From the NCBI GenBank assembly GCA_027028145.1, contig JALVJV010000021.1:1-64000 (forward strand): a stretch of 64,000 nucleotides of DNA, written 5' to 3'. The number at the start of each line of letters is the position of its first letter. The first letter of the stretch is position 1. Below the pieces are notes generated by a model. It searched no databases. It was not told the origin of the DNA and saw nothing but the letters and a program-made list of their open reading frames with translations. Shown here piece after piece: positions 5,374 through 13,225 of the stretch. The DNA is from Archaeoglobaceae archaeon. GTDB lineage: Archaea; Halobacteriota; Archaeoglobi; Archaeoglobales; Archaeoglobaceae. The position numbers and the translations under genes are program-made.

Positions 5374-7172
5374 AAAGCCAAAGCCAACGCTGTTAATCCC
5401 AAAGCTAAGCTGAATCCCGGGATTTCGATGTTCGAAATCTGATGCATGTGGTGGTATGTGTGGACTCCCTCTTCCGGCGTTATCGGCGGGGCTTCGACCT
5501 TAACGAGCTTCCTTTCAGGATAGGCTTTTGCTACAACCAAGATGAGCTTCGCGAGTCTCTCCGAAAGTTTGTAGTATGATATGGCCAAAGCTACATCCTT
5601 CTGAGTTTCCGCGAATTCGTAGTATGCTATCGGTAAGATGGGCGTTACGGCTTTCTCAGCTTCAGCCAAAGCGGCTTCAGCTGACTTCTTTGCAGATTCA
5701 AGCTTATCCTTTAACATTTCATCGTTCGTGACACCTATGAACTCGATGGATAAACTTGCTTTCGTAATCGCATCTATGCATGTTATAGCCGAACCGGCAT
5801 AGAATCCCATGTCGAACTGTCTTCTCGCAAGATCCATCGTGTCTTCAGCACTGCTTATGAGGTTTGGATAACCTCCGATGGATCTCGCATAGACGATGAG
5901 CGATTCGGCTTCTCTGAAGTAGAATTCCGCTCTCTTCTTTAGTTCTTCTCTGTTTATCGGAACGTCCTCATTAATCGTGCTCAGTAGGGACAACCAAACC
6001 TTGGCGCTCTCGACTCTCTCCTTAGCTAAGGCTAAGTAGTTCAATGCCGTATCGAAGTCTCCGCAAGTTTTTGCATCGAACAAATACTCCTCAGCCCAAG
6101 CTACCCTTTCCTCGGCGGCTCCGACGATCTGGAACGATTCCACACCCAAATTCTTGATGCTCTTGAGGTATTTCACCATATCGTCTATCTCCTTGCTGAC
6201 GTTGTCGAATTCTCTGCTCAGATCATCGTAGTTGTTTATAGTATTGCGGTAATACAGGTATCTGAGTCTTATCTCCGCTTGGAAGTATTTCGAAGTTGCC
6301 GTGTAGTAGTATCCCTTCTTGTAGTAATTGTCCGCCTCGTGAATAATCTGAATCGCCTCCTGAGGTTCCGTGAATCTCTCGACTATCTTAAGCATATGAA
6401 GAGTTCTATTCTTCATGTTTATGGCGAGTATCTTTAGCAGATCCGAATACTTAGATATGTTGAACGACGGTTTCGGCTTTTCAATCGTATAGCCGGTGTA
6501 ATACCACAGAGCCTGCTCTATCGTGCTAACTTCGATGACCTTTACTCCAAGCTTCTTGCCCATTTCCACGAGATCTACGGGTGTCATCTTCGTCGTTATG
6601 ATCAGGAAGGGGCCTTGCTTTTTCACGACCCTCTCCTGAACATAAACTATCCTCTGACCCTTAGGAATTAGGAATATCTTAGCTCCAGCCTTAGCAGCTG
6701 CTTCAAGCTTATACGGAATTCCGCCTACTGGCCCAATGAAGCCGTCCGGATAGATCATTCCCGTCATAAATACGTCTTTTCTGAGCGTCAGGTTCTTCAA
6801 TGCGGCGATGGTTGCGATCGTCATAACGGCTCCAGCCGAAGGTCCTCCAACTATCGGTGCGTCGGCTTTTATCTCGTAGAAGAAGTCGTATTTTGTGAAA
6901 TCCAGCCCAAGCAGATCGCAAGCCGTCAACGCGGCAAGCTGGGCGCTACCCTGCATGTCGATTTCGGTGTAAGGCACTATGGAAACGAAGACCTTTCCCG
7001 TTCCGGGCGTAACTATCACTGTAATGTTTATGACGGCTCCTTCGGGCTTTTCGCCGGTTTTAACGGCAACTGCTTTAATATTAACAACTCTGGCGTTGAC
7101 GAATTGTCCTTTTACGGGAATCAGCGGGAGCATCAGCGTTAGGATCAGCACAAGGGAAAGCGATCGACGCAT
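5355..7172 (-). CDS. secreted Lon-like (S16) serine protease with C-terminal PGF-type anchor
   Basis: The 605-aa product begins with a signal peptide (RRSLSLVLILTLMLPLIPVKG). A Lon proteolytic domain follows, with catalytic Ser112 in GGPSAGAVMTIA and Lys155 in GPVGGIPYKLEAA, the Ser-Lys dyad of family S16. There is no AAA+ domain. Residues ~240-560 are helical, with several TPR- or coiled-coil-like segments. The C-terminus ends in IPGFSLALGLTALALAFYF followed by Arg-Arg-Arg, a tripartite signal like the archaeosortase-processed PGF-CTERM. The protein is thus predicted to face the cell exterior, anchored at its C-terminus. Substrates are unknown. It is a monocistronic gene, convergent with the DUF92 gene. 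Confidence 0.85.
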   Translation of the reverse strand: MRRSLSLVLILTLMLPLIPVKGQFVNARVVNIKAVAVKTGEKPEGAVINITVIVTPGTGKVFVSIVPYTEIDMQGSAQLAALTACDLLGLDFTKYDFFYEIKADAPIVGGPSAGAVMTIATIAALKNLTLRKDVFMTGMIYPDGFIGPVGGIPYKLEAAAKAGAKIFLIPKGQRIVYVQERVVKKQGPFLIITTKMTPVDLVEMGKKLGVKVIEVSTIEQALWYYTGYTIEKPKPSFNISKYSDLLKILAINMKNRTLHMLKIVERFTEPQEAIQIIHEADNYYKKGYYYTATSKYFQAEIRLRYLYYRNTINNYDDLSREFDNVSKEIDDMVKYLKSIKNLGVESFQIVGAAEERVAWAEEYLFDAKTCGDFDTALNYLALAKERVESAKVWLSLLSTINEDVPINREELKKRAEFYFREAESLIVYARSIGGYPNLISSAEDTMDLARRQFDMGFYAGSAITCIDAITKASLSIEFIGVTNDEMLKDKLESAKKSAEAALAEAEKAVTPILPIAYYEFAETQKDVALAISYYKLSERLAKLILVVAKAYPERKLVKVEAPPITPEEGVHTYHHMHQISNIEIPGFSLALGLTALALAFYFRRR

Positions 7173-7286
7173 AACTGAATTTTATTGCAATCGAACAAAA
7201 ATCTTTTGGAAGTTTATATCGAATCGCTTGGTGTGGCTCATATTCAAATATAAAACTAGCAGTATCTGACGGGTAGAATTCAAAAA

Positions 7287-8075
7287 TTAAATCAGGGTTT
7301 CTATGATACCGTTCATCTCTTCAGCCTTCTCCTTCAAAATCTCCAAAGCCTTCCTCATTACAGTTCTAACTGGCAAAGCTCCTGTTCCTTCGACCGTGAA
7401 GAGGTAGTTGTTCGTGTCCAAAACTTCTATCGCGTTCTCTTCGCAGTTCTTAACGCATTCCATGCACATCGAACACTCCAAGACGTTTCCAACAACTATC
7501 TTACCGTCTTCAACCTTCAAAACCTTTCTCGGACAGACTTCTACGCATCTCCCGCAGTTGTCGCAGTCGTCCTTGATAACTATTTTGGGAATTATCTTGT
7601 AAAAGCACACCGAAACGGGTTGGAATTTTGCGTGCTCTTTTCCGGTTCCCAACCTCGCAACGGCTTCTATCATCAACTGCTGTCCTTCGTATAACTCGAT
7701 AATGGGTATATTGTCGAAGACCGGCTTAACTTCTGGATCATCCGAAATCAAATCGCCGGAATATACTACCTTCGGCCCCTCAACATTCAGTCTGAACGAT
7801 ACTTGGCAGTTCGGACAGCCTTCGCCTCCGCAACTGCATTTGTCTGGCAGGTTGAACCTCTCCAAATCGGTCTTGATAGGAATCAAACCAATCCTATGAG
7901 CGATAATTTCATCATATAAGAATGACGTATTCATATAGAAATCAACATAGTCGACAGCCATGGTGGGAACTAAACTCTTCATTGCCCTTCTGAACGAATT
8001 TGCAAGGGCTATTGGAGCATCGTAAAGTATAAACTTAACCTTAAATTCGCTCTCTTCGAGTATCTCGATTTTCAT
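7287..8075 (-). CDS. rpoD: DNA-directed RNA polymerase subunit D with two ferredoxin-like clusters
   Basis: This is the archaeal counterpart of the alpha/Rpb3 assembly subunit. The 262-aa product has the alpha-type dimerisation regions at both ends (APIALANSFRRAMKSLVPTMA; GALPVRTVMRKALEILKEKA). An inserted domain carries two complete 4Fe-4S motifs: Cys171-x2-Cys-x2-Cys-x3-Cys181 (CDNCGRCVEVCP) and Cys201-x2-Cys-x2-Cys-x3-Cys211 (CSMCMECVKNC). A further Cys set (CSCGGEGCPNC) may bind zinc. ATG 8075 (MKIEILEE) is preferred to an upstream start. It lies downstream of rps11, rps4 and rps13, the usual archaeal order; rpl18e, rpl13 and rps9 do not follow here. Confidence 0.95.
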   Translation of the reverse strand: MKIEILEESEFKVKFILYDAPIALANSFRRAMKSLVPTMAVDYVDFYMNTSFLYDEIIAHRIGLIPIKTDLERFNLPDKCSCGGEGCPNCQVSFRLNVEGPKVVYSGDLISDDPEVKPVFDNIPIIELYEGQQLMIEAVARLGTGKEHAKFQPVSVCFYKIIPKIVIKDDCDNCGRCVEVCPRKVLKVEDGKIVVGNVLECSMCMECVKNCEENAIEVLDTNNYLFTVEGTGALPVRTVMRKALEILKEKAEEMNGIIETLI

Positions 8076-8126
8076 AGCTATACCCACACGAACTCTCTAT
8101 TTAAAAGTTTGGTGGAAAATAAGGGA

Positions 8127-8528
8127 TTAAACTCTCCTTCCCCTCTTACCGCCCGGCGGTCTTGTGCCGTCGTGCGGAATCGGCGTAACGTCTTCGATCC
8201 TTCCGATCTTAAGTCCGGCTCTCGCCAAAGCTCTTATCGCCGCCTGAGCACCTGGGCCAGGTGTTGTGTGCTTGTTTCCACCCGGTGCACGAACCTTTAT
8301 GTGAACGCCCTCGATACCCTTCTCTTTAGCAATTTCAGCGGCCCTAAGAGCGGCTTGCATAGCAGTGTAGGGATTTCCTTCGTCTCTGTCGGCTTTTACG
8401 ATCATTCCACCGCTGATCCTCGCAATCGTCTCGCTACCGGTTATATCGGTGATCGTAATTATGGTGTTGTTGTAACTACTGAAGATGTGCGCTATACCCC
8501 ACCTACCCTTTTTCTTCTTCTCAGCCAT
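8127..8528 (-). CDS. rps11: 30S ribosomal protein S11
   Basis: The 133-aa product matches archaeal uS11 throughout: [56 protein letters not shown], and the conserved basic tail [20 protein letters not shown]. It binds the 16S rRNA platform near the mRNA exit. It follows rps4 by 12 bp with a ribosome-binding site in the gap, and precedes rpoD in the same transcription unit. Confidence 0.98.
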
Positions 8529-8540
8529 AAATCACACCCC

Positions 8541-9071
8541 CTATGCAACTTCTACCTCTTCGGATTTCTTAGCGAAGGGCGAGTTCGGATAGTATCCGAT
8601 CTTACTTTCCTCATCCTTCTCGACGATGTAGCTTGGAGCGGTAACCCTTCTACCGTCGATCGCTATGTGGCCATGGGTTATAAGCTGTCTCGCCTGCTTG
8701 ATCGTCCTTGCCAAGCCTAGTCTGTAAACCAACGTCTGGAGTCTTCTCTCCAAGAAGTCTTCGACCGTAAGGTTCAGAATGTCATCGAGCGTTGCGTTTT
8801 CGTCGAGCACACCCATCCTCGCAAGCCTCTTTATTACCGCCTGTGCCTTAGCCCTTGCGTATTCACCCTCTTTGCCCGGCAGATTTACCTTACCCAAAAG
8901 ATCTCTCGCGACCCTTCTGTATTTTCTCAGAATGTTCTGGAATCTCCATAGCTCCCTCTTGTTTCTCAGCCCGTATTTGATTACAAGTTGAGCCTCCCTC
9001 TCAAGTCTAACTTTATCCCAAGGATGGGGAGGAGTAACATACTTCTTCCTATGCCTTTTTGGATCGCCCAT
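8541..9071 (-). CDS. rps4: 30S ribosomal protein S4
   Basis: The 176-aa product is archaeal uS4. It has an N-terminal [19 protein letters not shown] and a C-terminal S4 RNA-binding domain ([19 protein letters not shown], then [20 protein letters not shown]). It is a primary 16S rRNA binder that starts small-subunit assembly. It lies between rps13 (9 bp upstream) and rps11 (12 bp downstream) on the same strand. Confidence 0.98.
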
Positions 9072-9080
9072 TCAATCACC

Positions 9081-9527
9081 TCACTTCTTCTTCCTAACAA
9101 CTCCAACCGTCATACCCTTTCTGCCAGTAGATCTCGTCCTCTGCCCTCTAACCTTCTTACCCTTGGCATGCCTTATTCCTCTGTAGCACTTGATTCTGAT
9201 CATCCTCTCGATATCGATCATCCTCGCGAAGTCCACATCCTTAGCGAGCAGATGGAGGTCTTTGCCCGAATAAGGATCTTTTCTCCTGTTGAACATCCAA
9301 GACGGGATGTGCTGTTCAAGTTCCTCCTCGACGAACTTCCTTAGTCTCTCTATCGTTTCGTCGTCGAGCTCACCGAGCTTTTTATGGGCGTCCAAGCCCA
9401 ATGCGTTGACTATAGCCCTCGCCATCCTTAAGCCGATTCCCTTTATGCCGGTGAGAGCCACCATGACGCTCTTATTACCATCCAAATCCGTATCCGCAAT
9501 CCTGACGATATGCTTGAACTCCGTCAT
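9081..9527 (-). CDS. rps13: 30S ribosomal protein S13
   Basis: The 148-aa product is archaeal uS13: FKHIVRIADTDLDGNKSVM, ALTGIKGIGLRMARAIVNAL (the helix-hairpin-helix region), and the basic tail RGQRTRSTGRKGMTVGVVRK. It sits in the head of the small subunit and contacts tRNA and the large subunit. It is first in the rps13-rps4-rps11-rpoD unit. ATG 9527 is preceded by GGTGATGAA, and a TTTAAATA TATA box lies at 9562-9572. Confidence 0.98.
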   Translation of the reverse strand: MTEFKHIVRIADTDLDGNKSVMVALTGIKGIGLRMARAIVNALGLDAHKKLGELDDETIERLRKFVEEELEQHIPSWMFNRRKDPYSGKDLHLLAKDVDFARMIDIERMIRIKCYRGIRHAKGKKVRGQRTRSTGRKGMTVGVVRKKK

Positions 9528-9713: not shown

Positions 9714-10247
9714 TTATAAAAGTCTAAAAATGCTGTCGGATGATACCGCATAGATCTCGACGTTCAACTTTTTAGTCTCGGAAATCACTTCTTTCCCTAT
9801 TCTCTCATCCGAAACTCCGAAAACTATCCTGAGCCTTCTCCCCGTTAATATCGGACTTTGGATTATCTTACTCCAAAGCTTTCTTATCTTCTTCAGCTTT
9901 CTGAGCAATCTTCTTTGATCCGTCTCTATCTCAACGAAGATAACTTCCTCATCCTTAACTATTACAGCATCCGGTCTGTATCCGATTTTTGAGAGTTTTG
10001 TCTGCTCCGACTCTAAATAGCAAGTCCCTCCGTCCTTCATCAGCTCTTCGATTAGCTTAACCTTTGCGGAGTAGTGATCTAACCCTTCCGTGCTCTTCCT
10101 CCTAAAGCTTTCGAGCTCACCAATGGCTATCTTTATCTCTTCGATCGCCCTTTCAATCGATTTGAAGTTCACTAACCTGTTAATGTTCTCCAACCTTTCG
10201 ACGATTTCTTCGAGCTCCCTCCTTAATCTTTCATTATCTCCCTGCAT
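9714..10247 (-). CDS. coiled-coil protein with PD-(D/E)XK-like domain, coupled to mutS
   Basis: The 177-aa product has a charged coiled coil (about residues 5-50) followed by an alpha/beta domain. That domain carries Arg-Pro-Asp93 (GYRPDAVIVKDEE), a hydrophobic strand ending in Glu106-Ile-Glu108 (VIFVEIETD), and then a lysine-rich helix (RRLLRKLKKIRKLWSKI). The order RPD...(V/I)E-x-E plus a basic helix resembles PD-(D/E)XK variants in which the lysine comes from a neighbouring helix; the fold is inferred. The ATG lies 25 bp inside the mutS 3' end, so translation is tightly coupled. No MutL is encoded nearby. It could supply the strand-nicking function for MutS, but an inactive or regulatory role cannot be excluded. 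Confidence 0.6.
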   Translation of the reverse strand: MQGDNERLRRELEEIVERLENINRLVNFKSIERAIEEIKIAIGELESFRRKSTEGLDHYSAKVKLIEELMKDGGTCYLESEQTKLSKIGYRPDAVIVKDEEVIFVEIETDQRRLLRKLKKIRKLWSKIIQSPILTGRRLRIVFGVSDERIGKEVISETKKLNVEIYAVSSDSIFRLL

Positions 10248-12703
10248 CTTCTCACGATCTTATCCAATTCAACCAAAGCCTGAATGGGTGTCAGGTTAAC
10301 CACATCTATCTTTGCTATCTCCCTCAAAAATGACGCGATGCTCTCATCAAAATCCGAACCCCTCATCTCAAGCAACTCGAAAGCCCTTTTTATAACTTCC
10401 TCCGGCAAATCCGCCATGCTTGCAACCTTAATCCCGTAGCTCTCGCTCGATGCACCTCTTCTAATCTTCCTATCGAATTCGATCTTACCGTTTTCTTCTT
10501 TAATTCCGAAGTGGTAATTCTTCACTCCCTCAAGCCTGTTTTCGAGCACGGAAAGCTCGTGGTAATGGGTTGCAAATAGCGTCTTAGCTCCTATTCTGTC
10601 GTGAATGTATTCCACTATTGCCCAAGCCAAACTCAAGCCGTCTTTTGTGCTCGTGCTTTTTCCAACTTCGTCGAGCAAAATTAGGCTTCTATTTGTGGCG
10701 TTTCTGAGTATCTTTGCTATCTCATCCATTTCAACCATGAAAGTGCTGTAACCTCTTGTTATGTCATCCACCGAGCCTATTCTCGTAAATATTCGATCTA
10801 CAATTCCTATAACAGCATAGCTTGCCGGAACGAAGCTTCCGATCTGAGCCAATATCGTGATCAAAGCCACCTGCCTCAGGTAAGTCGACTTTCCAGCCAT
10901 GTTTGGGCCGGTGATAATCAAAATCCTGCTTTTCTTATCTAAGGTAACGTCGTTAGGAACGAATTTGGTAGTTAGCTCTACGGTAGGATGCCTTCCGTCC
11001 CTTACGATTATGTCGTAGCCTTCGTTGACCTTCGGGCGGGTGTAGTTGTATAAAACCGCAACCTCTGCGAGAGATGCCAAAACGTCCAATTCTGCTATTC
11101 TGCTTGCGCAGTCCCTTATCCTATCAACATGCTTCGCAACCTCATTCCTAATGCTCTCGAATATCTCATATTCGAGGGATTTTATCTTCTCCTCGCAAGC
11201 CAGTATCTTCTCCTCCCTCTCCTCAAGCTCCGGAATCGTATACCTTTCGGCATTAACCAAGGTTTGCTTCCTCTTGTAATGCTTAGGAACCAATCTTATC
11301 TTCGATTTCGGAACTTCGATGTAGTATCCGAATACTGTGTTGTATCCGACCTTCAAGCTATCGATTCCAGTCTTTCTCCTTTCTCTCTCCTCTATCATCC
11401 TTATAAAGCTCTCATGCTCCTTCTTCAGATTCCTAAGCCTATCCAGTTCCTCGCTGAATCCATCCTTTATTATTCCGCCCTCCTTGACGGTTATGGGCGG
11501 ATCATCGACTATAGCGGAATCTATAAGCCTGCACACATCGTCGAGCGTGTCAAGATTCGATATTATGCTCCTAAGCTTCTTTGACGTGAAATTGAATTGC
11601 TTGAGCTTTGAAACGGCCTTTAGGGAGTTCTTCAAGGCAACCAGATCCCTTGCATTCGCAGATTTGAAGTCTATTCTGCTTACGATCCTCTCCAAATCGT
11701 AAACTTCCTTCAGTATCTCCCTTACGTTCTGCCTCAGGAAGGATTTCTCCTTAAGTTCTTCAACAGCATCGAGCCTGCTTTCGATTTCATCTATATCCAA
11801 CAGAGGTCTCTGAAGCCACTTCTTAAGCAACCTGCTACCCATAGCGGTTACGGTTCTATCCAAAACTTCGATGAGCGTCCCCCTTCTGCTTCCGTCTATT
11901 ATGTTCCTGAATATCTCCAAATTCCTTAGAGTCGTCGAATCGAGAACCATGTAATCTTGCGTTGAATACCTCTGCAATCTGAAGTTGAGGGTTTTAAGCA
12001 GAAGAGCATCCTTAACGTAGCTTAAAACAGCCCCGCAAGCTCTTATTGATGCGTTCGTAAGATCGAGATTCTTAGCTTCAGGAATCGACTCCAAAAGTTT
12101 TAGAGCATTCTCAACTGAGAACCTTTCGTTCTCAACCTTATGGACGGTCTTAACGATTTTTCTTATTTCGTTCGCAAAATCCTCATCGAAATCATCCGGA
12201 ATTATGCATTCAACAGGATTGAACTTCAAAATTTCGGCTATGACTTCATCCTTCGACGATACCGTTGTTGTGAAAAACTCACCGGTTGAAACGTCCAAAA
12301 AAGCTATTCCGTAGCCGTTATCCTCAACGACGGCCATCAGATAATTGTTTTCCTTCGTGAGAAGCTCCTCTTCGATAAGAGTTCCGGGAGTTATCACCCT
12401 TACGACTTCCCTTTTAACCAAACCCTTCGCTTTGGAAGGATCCTCAACCTGCTCGCATATCGCAACCTTGTAACCCTTCTCGATCAGCCTCTTTATGTAT
12501 GGAAACACAGAATGATGAGGAACTCCAGCCATCGGATGCTTTTTGTCTCTGGAAGTCAGAACTATGCCCAATTCCCGCGATGCAATCTCTGCATCCTCAT
12601 CGAATAGCTCGTAGAAGTCGCCTACTCTGAAAAATAGCAGGGCATCCTTATACTTTTGCTTAATTCTATAATACTGTTCCATCATTGGCGTCAGCTTTTT
12701 CAT
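10223..12703 (-). CDS. mutS: DNA mismatch repair protein MutS (bacterial MutS1 type)
   Basis: The 826-aa product has all MutS1 domains. The mismatch-binding domain carries the Phe30-Tyr-Glu32 motif (FRVGDFYELF). Connector, lever and clamp regions follow. The ATPase has Walker A GPNMAGKST at 599-607, Walker B LILLDE at 674-679, GKSTST in the signature loop, and THYHEL. Few hyperthermophilic archaea encode MutS1, so lateral acquisition is likely. The C-terminus (RCREIMKD) lacks the long tetramerisation tail of E. coli MutS. A TTTATATAG TATA element lies about 30 bp upstream. The downstream overlapping gene encodes a possible nuclease. Confidence 0.97.
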   Translation of the reverse strand: MKKLTPMMEQYYRIKQKYKDALLFFRVGDFYELFDEDAEIASRELGIVLTSRDKKHPMAGVPHHSVFPYIKRLIEKGYKVAICEQVEDPSKAKGLVKREVVRVITPGTLIEEELLTKENNYLMAVVEDNGYGIAFLDVSTGEFFTTTVSSKDEVIAEILKFNPVECIIPDDFDEDFANEIRKIVKTVHKVENERFSVENALKLLESIPEAKNLDLTNASIRACGAVLSYVKDALLLKTLNFRLQRYSTQDYMVLDSTTLRNLEIFRNIIDGSRRGTLIEVLDRTVTAMGSRLLKKWLQRPLLDIDEIESRLDAVEELKEKSFLRQNVREILKEVYDLERIVSRIDFKSANARDLVALKNSLKAVSKLKQFNFTSKKLRSIISNLDTLDDVCRLIDSAIVDDPPITVKEGGIIKDGFSEELDRLRNLKKEHESFIRMIEERERRKTGIDSLKVGYNTVFGYYIEVPKSKIRLVPKHYKRKQTLVNAERYTIPELEEREEKILACEEKIKSLEYEIFESIRNEVAKHVDRIRDCASRIAELDVLASLAEVAVLYNYTRPKVNEGYDIIVRDGRHPTVELTTKFVPNDVTLDKKSRILIITGPNMAGKSTYLRQVALITILAQIGSFVPASYAVIGIVDRIFTRIGSVDDITRGYSTFMVEMDEIAKILRNATNRSLILLDEVGKSTSTKDGLSLAWAIVEYIHDRIGAKTLFATHYHELSVLENRLEGVKNYHFGIKEENGKIEFDRKIRRGASSESYGIKVASMADLPEEVIKRAFELLEMRGSDFDESIASFLREIAKIDVVNLTPIQALVELDKIVRRCREIMKD

Positions 12704-12784
12704 TCAACTCAAGCGTTCGGCGAACAACTATATAAATGATGATTACCGAAAAGCAATTTATCTCATAAAATGGAAGTTTAAATC

Positions 12785-13225
12785 GTGCCCCGAAGAAAGA
12801 AGTGCAGATGGGTTTCGCTCGAACTGCCGAGTAAGATCGAAGGAGAGATAGAGATCTCGGCGGATGAACTTGAAGCTGTAAGGCTTGCGGATGTGGAGGG
12901 ATTGAGCCAAACCGAGGCCGCTAAACTCATGGGTATCAGTCAACCCACTTTCCACAGAATACTCAAAGAAGCGAGAAGGAAGATAGGGAAGGCTCTGATC
13001 GAGGGGCTGAATATTAGGGTTGTTGGAGGTGAGCACATAATGAGGAAGTTTAGGTGTTTCGACTGCGGATATGAGTGGGAGGAACCCTTCGGAACCGGAA
13101 GACCCGAAGCATGTCCGAAGTGCGGTAGCCCTAACATCCACAGAATAGATGCCGGAAGGGAAAGAGGTGGTGGCGGAGGTGGAAGAGGTAGAGGCTGGTG
13201 CGGGGGCAGAGGCAGGTTCGAATAG
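12785..13225 (+). CDS. DUF134 helix-turn-helix protein with zinc ribbon and Gly-rich tail
   Basis: The 146-aa product begins MPRRKKCRWVSLELP, like DUF134 proteins, and contains a sigma-70-region-4-like HTH (RLADVEGLSQTEAAKLMGIS, then TFHRILKEARRKIG). A C-terminal zinc ribbon follows (CFDCGYEW and CPKCGS), then a Gly/Arg-rich low-complexity tail. Such proteins are presumed DNA-binding regulators, and related ones often sit near dinitrogenase-iron-cofactor-type proteins, which I do not see here. The start is GTG 12785, with an AATTTATC TATA element about 26 bp upstream. It is divergent from mutS. Confidence 0.8.
   Translation: MPRRKKCRWVSLELPSKIEGEIEISADELEAVRLADVEGLSQTEAAKLMGISQPTFHRILKEARRKIGKALIEGLNIRVVGGEHIMRKFRCFDCGYEWEEPFGTGRPEACPKCGSPNIHRIDAGRERGGGGGGRGRGWCGGRGRFE

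Follow-up and report, generated by a model that had tools for sequence, protein, structure and literature searches.

We report that, in a member of the Archaeoglobaceae, the gene for the mismatch-repair protein MutS1 overlaps a gene whose 177-aa product probably has the PD-(D/E)XK nuclease fold, and that in two genomes of a second archaeal family (G166 and G322) the same partner domain is the C-terminal part of MutS1 itself, within one reading frame that exceeds 1,000 codons. We give an even chance to the reading that the two genes constitute a MutL-independent MutS1-nuclease module, in which the partner docks on MutS and nicks DNA. The pairing, together with the fusion, points to a route, not described so far, by which repair of replication errors may be initiated.

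The window, that is, the whole stretch of 64,000 nt analysed here, is part of an Archaeoglobaceae genome of 1.52 Mb in 24 contigs, with a completeness of 99.9%. The features of the pair within the window are collected in Table 1. mutS is preceded by a divergent gene (12785-13225, + strand), and downstream of the partner a ribosomal protein S13-like reading frame has its 5' side at 9527, which leaves a gap of about 186 bp. Because the two genes overlap, and because of the divergent gene on one side and this gap on the other, mutS and its partner look like one transcription unit. A TATA-like element, read by eye, is a possible promoter of the pair.

Table 1. Positions in the window of the mutS1 gene, its partner gene and the motifs discussed in the text.
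Feature	Position	Strand	Basis
mutS1 gene, 826 aa, MutS domains I-V	10223..12703	-	Pfam MutS_I to MutS_V and TIGR01070
Partner gene (177 aa), N-terminal helix pair followed by PD-(D/E)XK-like core	9714..10247	-	ORF, homologues, AlphaFold2/Foldseek
25-bp overlap of mutS and partner, partner ATG inside mutS	10223..10247	-	22 or 25 bp in all nine pair genomes
Partner codons 2-50, helical hairpin, putative MutS docking element	10098..10244	-	AlphaFold2 helices 2-26 and 29-50
Partner codons 91-93, R-P-D	9969..9977	-	Invariant in 11 sequences, including fusions
Partner codons 106-108, E-x-E at the D/E-x-K position	9924..9932	-	Invariant in 11 sequences
Partner codon 117, Lys, on helix 111-129 after the E-x-E strand	9897..9899	-	Invariant in 11 sequences
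mutS codons 30-32, F-Y-E, presumed mismatch-reading motif	12608..12616	-	Conserved GDFYELF
mutS codons 599-607, Walker A GPNMAGKST	10883..10909	-	Sequence motif
TATA-like TTTATATA, 3' end 26 bp before the mutS ATG, candidate promoter of the pair	12729..12736	-	By-eye reading

The mutS gene is intact, and all five of its domains are matched in Pfam (PF01624, PF05188, PF05192, PF05190 and PF00488). Its product scores 998 bits against the NCBIfam mutS1 model TIGR01070, for which the cut-off is 641.7; against TIGR01069 it reaches 222.6 bits, under the cut-off of 400 for that model, and it possesses domains I and II, so that it is not a MutS2. The motifs of mismatch binding and ATP hydrolysis are in place (GDFYELF, GPNMAGKST and LLDEVG), and the F-Y-E within the first of these we take to be the mismatch reader, following established knowledge of MutS. 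The ratio dN/dS is about 0.02-0.06 for mutS and about 0.05-0.14 for the partner. Given such low values, both genes are under purifying selection and neither is decaying. A scan for PCNA-binding motifs returned nothing conserved, and no other strand-discrimination signal was found. As a separate observation, the D-loop region of the window MutS (10631-10678, codons 674-689) carries the variant GKSTSTKDG. The Archaeoglobaceae proteins have GKST(S/G)TK(D/E)G after Walker B, where GRGTSTxDG is usual, and the fusion proteins retain GKGTSTYDG.

How closely is the partner tied to mutS? Among 55 Archaeoglobaceae genomes, in which mutS was scored by MutS domain IV, the partner is present in nine of the ten genomes that bear mutS and in none of the 45 that do not, and it always stands beside mutS. 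In the tenth mutS-bearing genome (G016), mutS reaches the end of a 4.7-kb contig and the position of the partner is missing. The hypergeometric probability of this co-occurrence is about 2e-9, a naive figure that overstates the case since the genomes are related. The first-pass annotation, which had reported the 25-bp overlap from the window, had also suggested looking for the pair in other archaea. Both points are borne out: the partner ATG lies 22 or 25 bp inside mutS in all nine genomes with the pair, and, far from being lacking in relatives, the pair is kept in three genera although the flanking genes differ between them. Specifically, the pair is flanked by ribosomal-protein and RNA-polymerase genes in most genomes of the genus to which the window belongs; in the second genus an N-acetyltransferase-like gene lies upstream of it, and in the third still other genes are found. 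The neighbourhoods hold some smaller features as well. Two small HicB/HicA-like (toxin-antitoxin) genes lie directly downstream of the partner in one genome (G017, locus L030, 6868-7392), and in another (G038, locus L026, 7444-8940) the partner is separated from ribosomal-protein genes of the window type by an AAA-type ATPase gene and a small companion gene.

To extend the comparison beyond the family, we ran a profile (A1) built from the nine partner sequences over 394 genomes of the phylum. Eleven genomes were matched at E<=0.001, and every match lay beside MutS or was fused to it, that is, the nine pairs together with G166 and G322. A match in G063 (E 0.009) was rejected as unrelated; it is a helicase-like protein by a DNA methyltransferase-like gene. 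A peptide-pattern scan of the genome contigs matched only Archaeoglobaceae, with a pattern that did not fit the fusions. Overlaps between genes are common in compact archaeal genomes, and one might suppose that a short nuclease-like gene has come to overlap mutS by chance; we find this scarcely credible, given that the co-occurrence is exclusive, that the overlap is kept despite different flanks, and that a fusion in another family already contradicts it.

The fusion occurs in only two of the 51 genomes of the second family. In the fused proteins the usual C-terminal helix motif of the TPxxAL type is gone, the nuclease-like domain follows a variable linker instead, and the mismatch-reading motif is F-F-E where the MutS of the pairs has F-Y-E. 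Of all the evidence for direct cooperation between the partner and MutS, this 'Rosetta stone' fusion is the strongest, and it strengthens the idea of a direct partner, which had been put forward from the gene overlap in the window. In a tree of 27 MutS proteins, the fusion MutS is sister to the MutS of the Archaeoglobaceae (98/98). The alternative that it is its own family's ordinary MutS with a domain added was rejected, since forcing that grouping gave an AU p-value of 0.0014. Two motifs are also common to the fusion and the Archaeoglobaceae proteins: TRIG[xx]D, which replaces the TRVGAxD of the other MutS, and DEVGK, in contrast to the DE[IV]GR found in most of the others. Because of this sister relationship and these common motifs, the pairing probably has a single origin, after which fusion or fission and transfer between lineages took place.

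The two genomes with the fusion differ in what else they hold. G166 (89% complete) has the fusion only and no MutL, whereas G322 (79% complete, 6% contamination) has the fusion, a frameshifted ordinary MutS and a complete MutL. We asked whether the second MutS and the MutL could stem from contamination; the three pieces match in tetranucleotide composition, with r of 0.93-0.96, and are probably from one organism. The ordinary mutS of G322 lies in two overlapping frames through the frameshift (locus L106, contig C7, 2981-5621), and the same locus contains, at 5754-9017, a reading frame of 1087 aa that resembles Cdc48/AAA ATPases and carries an intein-like insertion after its P-loop motif.

Patchy distribution and transfer between families are also what one might expect of a defence system, in which MutS would sense mismatched or aberrant DNA of an invader and the nuclease would destroy it, and mobile or defence-like genes do lie beside the pair in G017 and G038. 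We nevertheless regard this as very improbable, for a PADLOC scan gave no match for the partner and a search of viral contigs gave no relatives, and thus no sign of a viral gene, while inheritance is otherwise stable and mutS is under strong purifying selection. A PHROGs scan of the partner yielded nothing useful.

We turn to the partner protein itself. The first-pass annotation had described a coiled coil followed by a PD-(D/E)XK-like core. The AlphaFold2 model of the window partner (pLDDT 83, pTM 0.63) places two helices at the N-terminus, residues 2-26 and 29-50, in the position of the supposed coiled coil, and then elements in a PD-(D/E)XK-like order; the model of the fusion domain (pLDDT 84, pTM 0.76) has the same order, a-b-b-b-a-b. 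When the partner model was compared with the PDB by Foldseek, PD-(D/E)XK enzymes came out on top, namely the nickase Nt.BspD6I, the R2 retrotransposon endonuclease, Card1/Cdn1/Can2, Bax1, Ecl18kI, EcoRII and Hjc, with a best E of 4e-3 and none passing E 0.001. The corresponding search with the fusion domain was noisier, with Nt.BspD6I again first and noise behind it. Over the same region of the partner there are recurrent sub-threshold Pfam matches to PDDEXK_10, AHJR-like, Hjc and SduA_C; the curated cut-offs are not reached by PDDEXK_10 (15.7-17.4 bits, cut-off 21.2) or by AHJR-like (up to 17.8, cut-off 26.1). Thus AlphaFold2, Foldseek and Pfam all point to the fold first proposed, although no single match is significant, and we regard a PD-(D/E)XK fold as probable from these models and profiles. 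Among the seven partner domains scanned, NucS_C (PF01939) gave no match at E<=1. No match to HNH was found, and MutS domains II and IV are present, so that the window MutS is not a MutS7. A sequence search of the PDB with the partner returned only the designed protein OR280 (0.0013), a match that we judged to be chance, as it consists of two weak repeated stretches.

Among 11 homologues, the fusions included, whose identity to the window protein goes down to about 30%, no change is seen at E54, H58, E79, R91-P92-D93, E106, E108 or K117. The R-P-D and E-I-E residues therefore stand where they had been placed, but they do not make up a canonical motif: D93 and E106 are in position, the Lys of (D/E)-x-K is replaced by E108, and an invariant Lys, K117, is found on the following helix. 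An E-x-E is unusual for the PD-(D/E)XK superfamily. Since it stands where E-x-K is expected, nuclease activity is not assured; from the conserved residues it is plausible that the partner is an active nuclease. A different possibility is that the partner has the fold alone and acts as an inactive, DNA-binding or clamp-stabilising subunit of MutS that recruits another nuclease. We think this rather improbable, as D93, E106, E108, E79, E54 and K117 stay invariant at identities as low as about 30%, in paired and fused forms alike, which would be unexpected after a loss of catalysis, and as E-x-E occurs in active enzymes, for example BamHI. What speaks for an inactive subunit is the substitution itself and the precedent of Cyanophora MutS1, whose PD-(D/E)XK-type extension is thought inactive (PMC12292046).

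The absence of mutL next to mutS, on which the idea of a MutL-free unit was first based, extends to the whole window genome by both PF01119 and TIGR00585. PF01119 is in fact matched in none of the 55 Archaeoglobaceae genomes, that is, neither in the window genome nor in the 54 other members of the family, while it is positive in 11 of 14 controls and in 287 of the 394 genomes of the phylum. With TIGR00585, partial matches of only 21-24 bits (cut-off 180) occur in three of the ten mutS-bearing Archaeoglobaceae, and the other seven, like G166, give none. When the genomes matched by the MutS profile are set against those matched by the MutL profile, MutL is absent from 22 of the 301 MutS-bearing genomes of the phylum: the ten Archaeoglobaceae, nine incomplete members of the family with the fusion, and also G166, G122 and G354. 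The last two, near-complete genomes from other families (f10 and f5, respectively), have MutS with neither a MutL match nor a partner match, which reflects either another route or missing sequence.

NucS, for which a check had likewise been advised, is absent from the window genome (NucS_C) and from all pair-bearing Archaeoglobaceae except for an interrupted copy in G038. This NucS/EndoMS-like gene (locus L020, contig C34, about 1471-2200, - strand) contains one in-frame stop, owing to decay of NucS or to an assembly error. Most Archaeoglobaceae are without MutS, MutL or a clear NucS, and therefore high-temperature life is possible without the module. Nor is it confined to cells without MutL, because G322 has the fusion beside an ordinary, frameshifted MutS and a MutL. 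The notion of a MutL-free unit is thus supported in part.

Under the mechanism that we propose for the two-gene form, MutS1 would find a mismatch or small loop and turn into an ATP-bound clamp. The 177-aa partner would then dock on MutS by its N-terminal helices, near the C-terminus of MutS, a site suggested by the covalent attachment of the same domain there in the fusions. The putative active site of the partner (D93, E106 and E108, with E54, E79 and K117) would nick the DNA, rather than cleave both strands, and would thereby take the place that MutL or MutH has in other systems, bypassing MutL. The presumed purpose would be mismatch repair. G322, however, holds the fusion alongside a frameshifted ordinary MutS and a MutL, so the module may serve another purpose. 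In the main rival to our proposal it is an anti-recombination or junction-processing system: MutS would bind heteroduplexes or branched DNA for the nuclease to cut, and the chief task would be to reject recombination intermediates that are diverged or aberrant, not to correct replication errors. The coexistence in G322 is consistent with this, as is the appearance of Hjc, a Holliday junction resolvase, among both the fold and the profile matches, and MutS2-Smr and plant MSH1-GIY-YIG have been discussed in such terms (PMC12292046). Yet domain I and F-Y-E (F-F-E in the fusions) are retained, unlike in MutS2, which is without domains I and II, and we consider junction cleavage unlikely as the role of the module.

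If our proposed module is real, the role of MutL can pass to a nuclease coupled directly to MutS. Hyperthermophilic archaea have been described as being without MutS/MutL (PMC7343888), and some prokaryotes are without both MutS-MutL and NucS, so that more repair routes are thought possible (PMC5290159); the MutS1-nuclease module is a concrete candidate for such a route. We tentatively suggest, with somewhat less than even confidence, that prokaryotes have, next to MutS-MutL and NucS, a third kind of mismatch repair: a MutS1 with its own PD-(D/E)XK nickase, as two proteins in hyperthermophilic archaea without MutL and NucS, and fused in other archaea. Joins of MutS to nucleases are already known, namely MutS7-HNH, MSH1-GIY-YIG, MutS2-Smr, DPD1-MutS1 and Cyanophora MutS1 (PMC3166940, PMC12292046). 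Among the open-access papers searched, none describes an archaeal MutS1 paired with or fused to a PD-(D/E)XK protein; the module would add one more nuclease fold to those joined to MutS. It also offers heat-stable proteins for studies of signalling from MutS to a nuclease, with two proteins or with one.

Compared with MutS-MutL-MutH, or with MutS and an endonuclease MutL, the sensor is the same, MutS1, and MutH too is a nickase of the PD-(D/E)XK fold; the pair-bearing Archaeoglobaceae, however, are without MutL or MutH, and couple MutS directly to the putative nuclease. NucS/EndoMS is likewise a PD-(D/E)XK enzyme for mismatch repair in archaea without MutS-MutL, but it reads the mismatch itself, whereas the partner has no NucS_C match, has E-x-E, and would rely on MutS for recognition. 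MutS2 also joins a MutS ATPase to an endonuclease, yet that endonuclease has the Smr fold, MutS2 is without the mismatch-binding domain I and domain II, and it acts on recombination intermediates or ribosomes. Closer in plan is MutS7, the mtMutS of octocorals, a MutS with a C-terminal endonuclease that has been proposed to be self-contained without MutL (PMC3166940); it differs in its HNH nuclease, in the absence of domains II and IV and in being usually fused, whereas here we have a full MutS1 with domains I-V, mainly in two genes. Plant MSH1, likewise a MutS, also carries a nuclease at its C-terminus, and this domain has been proposed to cut where a mismatch is recognised (PMC12292046), but the nuclease is of the GIY-YIG type and the protein is organellar and of another MutS subfamily. 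The nearest architectural precedent, within the PD-(D/E)XK superfamily, is the MutS1 of Cyanophora with its Mrr_cat-like C-terminal extension (PMC12292046). That extension is known from a single lineage and lacks the catalytic residues, whereas in the archaeal module the putative catalytic residues are invariant and the domain exists as a separate gene as well.
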